NCBI GenBank assembly: GCA_000697355.1
Contig: JNEN01001277.1
Coordinates: forward strand, 62,001-126,000
Source of the DNA: Syncephalastrum monosporum B8922
Lineage: Eukaryota > Mucoromycota > Mucoromycetes > Mucorales > Syncephalastraceae
Direction of reading: 5' to 3'
DNA: 64,000 bases
The notes beneath the pieces were generated by a model. The model made no database searches. It saw only the letters and a list, made by a program, of their open reading frames with translations, and was not told the DNA's origin. The translations under genes were made by a program, and so were the position numbers. The number at the start of each line of letters is the position of its first letter. The stretch's first letter is position 1. Below are positions 55,640-61,341 of the stretch, piece by piece.

Positions 55640-55918
55640 TTATAAAAGCGGGCTTTGGGCCCTTTCTATGATGGCCTGACTCCACGCAACCCGATCGTCC
55701 CAGACAGAATGCGGCACGTCGTACGGTTGCCAATCGACGGCCAGCGTCAGATGGAGCTCGGCCTCGAGCGTGCGCTGCACGTCGGGCGGGATCTTGTAGA
55801 GGCAGTAAACGAGCTGGTCGATCGCGTACTGGTAGAGCGAGTTGGCCCAGAGCAGCTGGACGAGGCACGCATGCCAGTCCGAACCAGCCAGCCCCAGCTG
55901 GGTCGGGTCTGCCGCAGG

Positions 55919-55957
<39 letters not shown>

Positions 55958-58744
55958 ACCATGGACCCGCACGGCCTCGCGCTCGACCTCGGTCAAGCGC
56001 CACGTGCAGTTGCGCACCTTGTCGTGGAGGAAAGCGAGCGGGGTGGCGCGCAGCACGCGGAACAGGGTCGTGCGCACCGCCATGACTTGCCGGACGAGCG
56101 CGTGCATGGCGTGGACATCCGCGGGCGAGGGCGGCGCGTACGGGATATTGGCGAGCTGCTTGCCAAACAGTCGGGTGCGGCCCTGCTGGTCGTACGAACA
56201 ATTCTCCTGGATCAGGAAGAGAAGCGTGCTCGAGTTGAGGAGGCCCAGGAAGAAATGCTCGCGCGCCTCTTTCGCCGCGGCGTCGTCCCTCCCCGCGTCG
56301 TCCTTGAGGGTAAAGTAGACGCACTGGTTGGTCACGCACCAGCGCTGGCGGTCGAGAAAGAAGCGTTGGCGCGGCTGCGACTTGGTGAGGTAGCCATTGT
56401 TGATAGGGTGCACGAATTTCACCGGCGCATCGACGCCGCACTTGTTGTACTGGCAGTACGCGAGCTTGCGATCGGTGTGGTGGCTCTGGAGCGCGTCGCG
56501 CGCGTCGCGCAGATAGCGATACAGCGGCGAGTCGACCGGGAGCGCGTCGGCACCGTCCTTGTCGACGAGGATCATGAGGTACTGCACGGCGGGTTCGACC
56601 GCGACGTAGGCCTCGGCGGGCGAGCCCTCCTTGCGCACGATCCGGAGCGGGTCGCGGGTCTGCCAGAACGCGCCCTCCTTGTGCTCGCATGCACCGGACT
56701 TGCCGTTCCAGTAAAACACCGGCCGCAGCCACTGCGCGCAGGTGTCTTGGCCCAGCACACGGAGCGCCCACTCGGCCCGCACGACGAGGGCATACACCGG
56801 GTGCGTGTTGGGCCCGCGGTGGAAGACGAGCGGCGCGTCGGTGGCAGTGCGGCCCGGGCGCGTGTCGGCGTCGCACAGACGCGGCAGGTTTTCGGTCAGG
56901 ACGCGGATGGCCTCGGACACGGACGACGAGGGCGACAAGAAGGCCATCGAGGCGCCCGGGACGCGCACGAGGAGGTCGGCCTGGTCTTCAAAGGGCGTGA
57001 TGCGGTACTCGGCTTTGGTGTCGCACGGGTGATCGCGGTTGAAAGCGGCATATTCGCGGAGGAGGTCCTCGAGGCGCAGCTTGCGATCGTGGTGGCGCAG
57101 GTAGAGCGTGCCGTCGGTGGTCGGTGTCTTGGACTTGAGCTCCAGACGGAAGATGAGCGAGTCGGTCTGGACCTTGGGCCATACCTTGTACGTGTCGAAC
57201 TGGTACATTTCCAGCATGCGGCAGTGCTTGGACAGCCAGAGCCTAGACGAGCCTATCATGAATACCCTATCCGTCCCCGGATATGCCCCGCTCTGAGGCC
57301 CCTCTTATCCTACCTCAGCTGTTCAGCGAATTCAAGAACGACCCATTGCGAGGGCGTGATGAGGCAGACCTGGCCGGTATGCGGGTCGCAGCGCTGGAGG
57401 CAGATCCACATAAAGTAAAGATAGCAGTGCATGCCGCGGCCGCCGAGGATGCGGTCGTCGTACATCTGAGGGTCGGGCGTGGTGACGAAGCCGGTCTTGC
57501 GGATCTGGTAGGGCGGATTGGTCACAATGAAATCAAACCGGAGCGAAGTGGGGTCGCGCAGACGGGCCAGTTGGGCCTGCTCCCACGCGTCGCCCGTGAG
57601 TGCGAGCTGCAGCGTATCGTTGCAGAACAGGCGGAGCCGACCGACCGAGCGCGGCGCGACAGGCTGGCCGAGCTGCAAGAGGCGCTTGTAGAAGGGGAAG
57701 AGATGGATCATGACGTTGAGCCTGCCGAGCTCGAGCGCAAACGGGTCAATGTCGACGCCCCAGACTTGCTCGGGGATGCGTTGGCTGAACAGGGCGAGGA
57801 GGGTATCGGCGGAGGAGGCTTCGTGGAGGGCAGCGAGTCGGATGAGGTATTCGCACAAAAAGGCGCCTGTGCCCATGCAGGGATCAAACACGCTGGAGGA
57901 TGCATGCGGGGGTGGACACATATCCCACATGTAATGCACGACCGATTGAGGCGTGTAGAACTGGCCGTGGTCCTTTTGGTGTTTCTGCGCTTCGATCTCG
58001 AGGAAGCAGGTCGTGTAAAACTGGGACAGGATCATGTCGACAAACTCGAGGGTGCTGAACTGGATCTTTGCATCGACGAGTCGCTGTCGAATGTCGACGG
58101 TGGGCCGCAGACCGCGCACGACTTCGCGATAATGCCAGGTAAACAAGGAGGGGCGGTCGCCGAAGACGGTGTCGTCGTTGGGATGGAAACGGGTGAGGTA
58201 GTGCTCGAGGGTGCAGTGCGGGTGCATATCGTGGAGGACGGTGTCGAGAAAGACGAGACAGGTTGTCATGCAGCTCGTCAACAGGCAGAACAGCTGCACC
58301 GCGTCTCCGTTGAGTGCACAGACAGCCGCGGCCGCTTCTTGTCCCTTGAACCGCTGCAGAAATAATTTAGCCGATGCACTCGCCTCGCCTGTAGTGGTCC
58401 TTTGTGTTCAGTATGGGATGGCCGCATTCGCACTTTCAAGTACTGTATGTAGTGTCTATATCCTAGTGTGTGTGTCTACCTGTCTCGAGTTCGGCCGACA
58501 GTTGCTGGCGGGTTTCGGACAAGGCACCGCCGAGAATGGCCACGGCCGACTTGGCACATTGCTCGGTCAGACGTCGGAAGCAGACTTCCAGAAAGCGCTG
58601 CTGCTTACGCGGAGGAGAAGGAGGAGGAGCAGAAGGGGATGGCACGTCTCGCTTGCGTTTGTCGCCCACACAAGGAATCGGGGATGGCGGGGACTCACCA
58701 ACGCCTAAAAGGCCGGGAATGTCGAGAATGGAGTTGGCGCTCAT
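55640..58744 (-). CDS. Bacterial-type N6-adenine DNA methyltransferase (Eco57I/type IIG-like), spliced
   Basis: 988-aa protein in three exons: 58744-58480, 58388-57314, 57266-55640; introns are 91 and 47 nt with GT..AG ends and exact frame. The N-terminus has a basic 'DKRKRD' (possible NLS). Catalytic motifs of gamma-class adenine MTases are all present: X-like 'DHGQFYTPQSVV' (~228-239), I 'VFDPCMGTGAF' (~255-265), II 'GVDIDP' (~299-304), III-like 'CNDTL', IV 'FIVTNPPY' (~375-382). The C-terminal ~550 residues form a type IIG-like target-recognition half, with 'NQCVYFTLKD', 'FFLGLLNSSTLLFLIQENC' and 'LFGKQLANIPYAPPSP', interrupted by an 11-Gln tract. No PD-(D/E)xK or other nuclease motif is visible. 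It differs from the MT-A70 enzymes usually linked to fungal 6mA. It should transfer methyl from SAM to adenine N6; origin by horizontal transfer is inference. Confidence 0.92.
55919..55954. repeat. CTG/CAG triplet repeat inside the methyltransferase
   Basis: About twelve uninterrupted CTG units on the plus strand, read as CAG (11 Gln after 'HGH') in the methyltransferase. An in-frame, probably length-variable insertion in the recognition half. Confidence 0.9.
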
Positions 58745-60540: not shown

Positions 60541-61341
60541 ATGTCAAAGAGCATCAAGGCCCTCAGCCTGAAGGGCAAGCAAGACTGGGAGACCTCCATA
60601 TACTGCTTCTCGCGTGTGCAGCGCAACAAGCTTCTCTGGGAGAATGACGGTGCGGCCAAGGAAGCCCTGAAGCATTTCTTCCAGAAGCAGTTGACATCGA
60701 CGCCTCAGTTCAAGCACACACCTTCCCGCGTCACCATTCAAATGTTTTACTACGTCGACCCCAACTTTGGCAACCCGAGCGCACACACACTGAAGCCTCT
60801 CGAGAAGCTTGTGACTAGCTTGTATCCCAACAAGCAAGTCGATGTCAAGCTGATCCGTGTCCACTACCCTTACATGAATGCCGAGATTCTTGCCCAGTAC
60901 TTGACCATCAACGCCAACCGTCTCGGCTGGTCGATTGTCACCCGTCAGTTCATGCGCAACGCACCCATTGTCAAGCCACCGCTTCCGCATAGCATGCCGT
61001 TCGGCGTGCAGTGGAACAGTTTGTTGCCACAGGTTGCCAACGGTCGCCTGACCACCGGTATCCAGGGCATCAAGTACCAGGTGTCGGGTCGACTGGGTCG
61101 CAAGAAGGGTGCTGGCCGATCACAGGTACTGCGCAAGTCGCTCGGTACTTTCCAGTTCACCTCGCACAAGTCGCTTGTCGATGTCGGCCGCCACACGTTC
61201 TCCAACAAGAACGGCAGTATCACGGTCAAGGTCTGGATCTCGTCTGCCTTGTTCGGTGTCAATGCCATCAACGCCATGGCCAAGAACGCCCTCAAGAAGG
61301 CAGAGACAAAGGCTGTGCAGGCTGCTACGCCAAAGCTCTGA
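60541..61341 (+). CDS. Mitochondrial small-subunit ribosomal protein uS3m (Var1/Rps3 family), nuclear gene
   Basis: Single-exon, 266 aa. It follows the fungal mitochondrial Var1/uS3m pattern: 'WETSIYCFSRVQRNKLLW' near the N-terminus (yeast Var1 has W-N-T-Q-I-Y-N-Y), 'IQMFYYVDPN', 'LVTSLYPNKQVDVKLIRVHY' with 'PYMNAEILAQYLTIN', 'FMRNAPIVKPPLPHSMPFGV', 'GIKYQVSGRLGRKKGAGRS' and a C-terminal 'FSNKNGSITVKVWISS'. It is a core protein of the mitoribosome small-subunit head. Codon use is like the neighbouring nuclear genes and GC-rich, not mitochondrial. The N-terminus 'MSKSIKALSLKGK' is basic without acidic residues, suitable for mitochondrial import. In most fungi that keep this gene it is in mtDNA. 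The start is the first ATG; no upstream exon was seen. Confidence 0.82.
   Translation: MSKSIKALSLKGKQDWETSIYCFSRVQRNKLLWENDGAAKEALKHFFQKQLTSTPQFKHTPSRVTIQMFYYVDPNFGNPSAHTLKPLEKLVTSLYPNKQVDVKLIRVHYPYMNAEILAQYLTINANRLGWSIVTRQFMRNAPIVKPPLPHSMPFGVQWNSLLPQVANGRLTTGIQGIKYQVSGRLGRKKGAGRSQVLRKSLGTFQFTSHKSLVDVGRHTFSNKNGSITVKVWISSALFGVNAINAMAKNALKKAETKAVQAATPKL

Follow-up and report, generated by a model that had tools for sequence, protein, structure and literature searches.

In early-diverging fungi, the closest described counterpart of the gene analysed here is MetB, the name given by Lax et al. in 2024 to the Mucor member of a methyltransferase family (PMC11258239). According to the main text of that paper, deletion of metB in Mucor lowers N6-methyladenine (6mA) by 70-75% and abolishes the asymmetric AAA-6mA-CA motif, while hydroxyurea sensitivity and lipid content rise and virulence in wax-moth larvae falls. 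Its authors infer an ancient bacterial transfer, with a second transfer in Glomeromycota (PMC11258239); an endosymbiont donor has been suggested in print. In this context, we describe a gene on the minus strand (58744-55640) of a 64,000-nucleotide stretch of Syncephalastrum monosporum B8922 (contig JNEN01001277.1, positions 62,001 to 126,000; hereafter the window). Since Lax et al. characterised Mucor MetB, the gene is read as the orthologue of a known enzyme and as the Syncephalastrum member of a family that is not new. Altogether, the evidence makes us confident that this is a gamma-class adenine DNA methyltransferase of bacterial descent that is present as a single copy and apparently passed on vertically in early-diverging fungi.

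Searching for fungal N6_Mtase enzymes and 6mA returned Lax et al. only, and a search for Eco57I with fungal horizontal gene transfer gave no fungal enzyme by title. The MetB work is cited by a 2025 study (PMC12695648) and a 2026 review (PMC13297926). The main text of PMC11258239 names neither Syncephalastrum nor CamA, and Syncephalastrum racemosum appears in the species list of an MT-A70 comparison (PMC8298701). The original prediction for this DNA had presented the gene as a different route to 6mA in a field centred on MT-A70 enzymes. Neither novelty nor a field confined to MT-A70 enzymes is supported: Mucor MetB, of the same family, was deleted and characterised in 2024 (PMC11258239).

The likeness to Mucor lusitanicus MetB extends to the PF02384 domain family, the fungal lineage and the architecture (PMC11258239), although the genus is another one and the activity and target of the window gene are predicted. 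The one Mucor circinelloides protein listed is a full-length homologue, 42% identical to the window protein. The 980-amino-acid product matches Pfam Eco57I (64.1 bits, cut-off 25.3) and N6_Mtase (PF02384; 56.4 bits, cut-off 20.4), the latter being the domain of the MetB family. The TaqI_C match (15.3 bits) stays under its cut-off of 26.5. No MT-A70 domain (PF05063) was matched at E up to 1. This sets the protein apart from the MT-A70 writers (Mta1/Mta9, METTL4), which are also adenine methyltransferases of early-diverging fungi but belong to that separate Pfam family.

The sequence and the family alignment place GQFYTP at amino acids 230-235 (57949..57966; all gene features given here lie on the minus strand), DPCMGTGAF, which binds S-adenosylmethionine (SAM), at 257-265 (57859..57885) and the catalytic NPPY at 379-382 (57508..57519). 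We take these to be motifs X, I and IV, and the acidic VDIDPFA seen in the sequence at 300-306 (57736..57756) is presumably motif II. A target recognition domain follows at approximately amino acids 535-825 (56108..56980; borders set by us), and profile-profile and fold comparisons relate it to TaqI_C specificity domains. With motif I beginning at residue 257 and motif IV at 379, the order motif X, motif I, motif IV, recognition domain matches the gamma class of adenine DNA methyltransferases. Classes of these enzymes are defined by motif order (PMC8187626).

An enzyme acting on RNA or protein, rather than on DNA, could be read from the weak matches of the window protein to UPF0020 (19.7 bits) and PrmC (16.5 bits), both of which lie under their cut-offs. 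The NPPY motif is found in protein and RNA methyltransferases too. Against this, the enzymes that rank highest by family and by fold act on DNA and carry a recognition domain: the Pfam matches above cut-off are to DNA adenine methyltransferases, as are the leading fold matches (the best 50 of 726 in one comparison and the 50 listed in another), apart from the unspecified methyltransferase 2f8l. The RNA or protein methyltransferase clade named in the original prediction as grounds for rejecting it was thus not seen. Moreover, the main text of Lax et al. reports that loss of the Mucor gene lowers DNA 6mA to the extent given above (PMC11258239). We consider an RNA or protein target very unlikely.

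The fold was examined through P0001, a Syncephalastrum racemosum database protein and the best homologue of the window protein. Its predicted model consists of a helical domain, a methyltransferase core and a recognition domain; the predicted local distance difference test score is below 50 at residues 1-59, and residues ~60-230 are modelled as helices. The top match among solved structures is CamA, a Clostridioides difficile orphan methyltransferase with the site CAAAAA (PMC8187626). CamA is nonetheless only ~16% identical to the fungal protein, escapes a sequence search even when the family profile is used with E values as high as 10, and has no counterpart of the fungal N-terminal helical domain (the fold alignments begin at model residues 204-238). 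In print, the recognition domain of MetB has been compared with that of MmeI, whereas CamA and M.BseCI rank higher here (PMC11258239).

The same arrangement in a single chain, a core followed by a recognition domain, occurs in BpuSI, DrdV and MmeI (type IIG/IIL) and in PglX/BrxX of the bacteriophage exclusion (BREX) systems. Restriction-type enzymes bear a nuclease in the same chain, and BREX methyltransferases act with partner proteins. Pfam and NCBIfam scans of the fungal protein (E up to 1) list no nuclease family, though a diverged nuclease could escape such profiles; a 37-residue weak match to the solved ribonuclease 2apq (E 0.035) is taken as chance. The earlier claim of an adenine methyltransferase of bacterial type that is fixed in a fungal chromosome, and apparently stands alone there, is supported.

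How the recognition domain has evolved was compared between a fungal set of 47 proteins (the first 48 less one shorter than 800 amino acids) and a bacterial set of P0111 plus 66 of 79 loci (stop-free, 850-1500 amino acids; 13 dropped), with P0001 representing the window protein. A profile-profile match indicates that the two sets are homologous across both halves of the protein. Among pairs with 45-55% core identity, which are not independent of one another, the median identity of the recognition domain is 0.51 in fungi (582 pairs) and 0.32 in bacteria (784 pairs; 10-90% range 0.16-0.43). The ratio of recognition to core identity, taken at 45-65% core identity under three domain definitions with borders of our choosing, is 0.99, 1.09 and 1.03 for the fungal set, as opposed to 0.64, 0.66 and 0.57 for the bacterial one. 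A recognition half as conserved as the catalytic half in fungi, and far less so in distant bacteria, suggests that the specificity of the fungal enzyme is frozen. Because the fungal recognition domain keeps pace with the core, selection may act to retain one target word, as fits a marking enzyme and not arms-race restriction. Two points weigh against this. The N-terminal helical region has a ratio to the core of 0.46 in fungi and 0.87 in bacteria, so that the fungal protein is not frozen throughout, and the bacterial loci were selected with a pair of peptide words close to the core, so that core conservation may be inflated in that set. We put forward only tentatively, and with some doubt, the more specific idea that MetB is an orphan writer of the CamA kind, that its DNA specificity was set a single time, on capture, and that it has persisted since then across Mucoromycota, with the same asymmetric A-rich word methylated in every member. 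If true, the enzyme may descend from an orphan methyltransferase with a regulatory function, as opposed to one half of a restriction system, and this ancestor need not have come from an endosymbiont.

The gene itself (55640..58744; read as the metB orthologue from splicing, Pfam and homologue comparison) reads through three exons. Exon 1 (58480..58744) holds the start codon (ATG, 58744-58742) and an N-terminus predicted to be disordered from the P0001 model, exon 2 (57314..58388) the helical domain together with the greater part of the methyltransferase core, and exon 3 (55640..57242) the end of the core, the recognition domain, a helical C-terminus and the stop. Intron 1 (58389..58479) has 91 nucleotides and reads GTAGAC...CTACAG, and intron 2 (57243..57313) has 71 and reads GTAGGATA...GTCTAG; both are GT-AG. 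A 47-nucleotide alternative for intron 2, ending at 57267, also keeps the frame open, as do other GT-AG pairs (92 combinations yield more than 950 amino acids within the ranges tried). The pair chosen gives the sequence of P0001 over both junctions, and the 71-nucleotide form of intron 2 is favoured because P0001 carries the sequence that it predicts. The spliced reading is more open than base-shuffled exons: exon 2 is open over 357 codons and exon 3 over 533, compared with mean longest open stretches of 136 and 172, and maxima of 289 and 361, in 300 shuffles per exon.

The window protein is 94% identical to P0001 over residues 180-700 and agrees with it in 881 of 987 columns over the full length, a likeness that would fit a Syncephalastrum species or a divergent strain as host. 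Conservation is uneven. The methyltransferase region is identical in 271 of 280 columns and the polyglutamine region in 14 of 46, the latter including a CAG/polyglutamine tract (55920..55954) that sequence comparison does not find in P0001; this difference is as expected under purifying selection. It bears on the possibility that the gene is a decaying or catalytically dead relic, for which altered relatives could be cited: a Spinellus protein of 580 amino acids has AQFYTP replacing GQFYTP, and motif I reads DPCLGVSTF in 46 of 109 family rows. In the window protein the motifs are intact and the core is conserved. We reject the pseudogene reading as unlikely, and the complete, spliced gene with intact motifs that had been predicted is borne out.

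A homologue search with the window protein, scoring the 8000 candidates with the most shared words, found 88 proteins with E values no higher than 0.001. When an alignment built from 37 of these was used as the query, 116 were found, including the distant and probably bacterial P0111-P0131. The family is found throughout Mucoromycota, plus Basidiobolus, and NPPY is kept in 101 of the 109 rows. Of the other eight, one lacks NPPY alone and seven (542-731 amino acids) lack all three tested motifs and are probably fragments. A tree of 40 rows was built from the window protein, 19 chosen relatives from the 109 rows, and 20 of 22 presumed bacterial proteins (two shorter than 700 amino acids were dropped). 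The 20 fungal rows form one clade with support of 100/99, apart from the other 20 rows, which are presumed bacterial. The window copy pairs with S. racemosum (99/95), and Glomeromycotina cohere, as do Mortierellaceae. The gene tree tracks taxonomy only partly, since several other fungal forks are open and Gongronella groups with Umbelopsis. Gongronella butleri has two diverged copies (P0049 and P0058, 36% and 33% identical to the query), paired in the tree; both join Umbelopsis, away from other Mucorales.

Two further sequence features were noted in the family. In the DPCLGVSTF proteins (e.g. P0052, P0055, P0057 and P0066 of Mortierellaceae) the second glycine of motif I is gone, and all four Mortierellaceae tree rows carry this form yet keep NPPY; cofactor binding may differ in these proteins. 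Among the 91 rows whose N-terminus could be used, 12 carry an N-terminal motif, WLxxVLN or VLD, which EVDP follows in seven of the twelve. Its bearers belong to Glomeromycotina, Apophysomyces, Jimgerdemannia and Calcarisporiella (P0002, P0024, P0030, P0032, P0037-P0039, P0042, P0044, P0045, P0047 and P0048). This motif was dropped from the explanation because it is missing from the window protein and P0001.

Outside these fungi the domain type is mostly bacterial or archaeal (13 of 14 control genomes were positive for N6_Mtase and 11 of 14 for Eco57I), which could be taken to mean a recent bacterial transfer or contamination of the assembly. Against this stand the two introns, whose removal gives the protein of a related species, and the spread of the family in early-diverging fungi. 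The surrounding genes are eukaryotic: the eight open frames scanned include VAR1, POP1, two protein kinases and a major facilitator superfamily transporter, while two gave no match. The G+C content at third codon positions is host-like (0.82; two other window genes have 0.75 each). In addition, a scan covering 84,980 prokaryote species, each represented by one genome, with the fungal profile matched four stretches and confirmed none, although it demands one of two peptide words from the fungal alignment and relatives with neither escape it. As far as these data go, we reject contamination or recent transfer, which appears extremely improbable. The earlier view that the gene is neither a contaminant nor an obvious pseudogene stands.

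When prokaryotes were scanned a second time, now with a profile made from the distant hits, 512 stretches were confirmed, from which at least 79 loci were kept. Among the matches listed (79 loci) are Chloroflexota, Cyanobacteria, Poribacteria, Armatimonadetes and others; no fungal endosymbiont was seen among the 79 locus titles, and none of these lineages emerges as the likely donor. The bacterial relatives are distant: in the tree, the fungal clade has a stem of 1.82 changes per column and joins the long branch P0088 (4.3), a join that is possibly false. The 79 loci do not show who the donor was, and leave the published endosymbiont suggestion neither confirmed nor excluded.

Within the 27.5 Mb assembly (198 contigs), the Eco57I and N6_Mtase profiles each find one locus, this gene. 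MT-A70 has two loci above cut-off elsewhere, plus one weak match below it. One of the two matches the solved Methyltransferase-like protein 2 (7cv6, E 5.1e-19) and is presumably METTL4-type. The second (L003, G000 C36:148109-148330) has DPPL where the catalytic DPPW is expected, and a search against solved structures gave it no match; it may be an inactive subunit or partner of the kind we take to be Mta9-like. No MT-A70 enzyme of the Mta1 type, with DPPW, was recognised, which is no evidence of absence because the scan goes exon by exon in six frames. Separately, a VAR1/rps3-type mitochondrial ribosomal protein is encoded at 60541-61341 (plus strand; PF05316, 200.8 bits) on this nuclear contig, at a distance of ~1.8 kb from the methyltransferase gene. 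Most fungi carry the VAR1/rps3 gene in the mitochondrial genome.

Taken together, the Syncephalastrum MetB orthologue would enter the nucleus via its basic N-terminal stretch, where KRKR (58649..58660) is a possible nuclear localisation signal. Its recognition domain would read a short asymmetric A-rich site, and the target adenine would be flipped into the NPPY pocket and N6-methylated from SAM. The output would be asymmetric 6mA, probably at AAA-6mA-CA by analogy with Mucor, whose motif is of the asymmetric kind that the original prediction had expected (PMC11258239). By the same analogy with the Mucor deletion, the enzyme probably serves gene regulation and replication or repair, and not restriction. 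The proposed use in DNA marking is probable. A second fungal route to 6mA besides MT-A70 matters, but it was established in 2024. Since the recognition domain is kept like the catalytic core, the target word of Mucor is predicted to recur in Syncephalastrum and in other Mucoromycota, and the structure of CamA with DNA offers a template for locating the residues that would read it.
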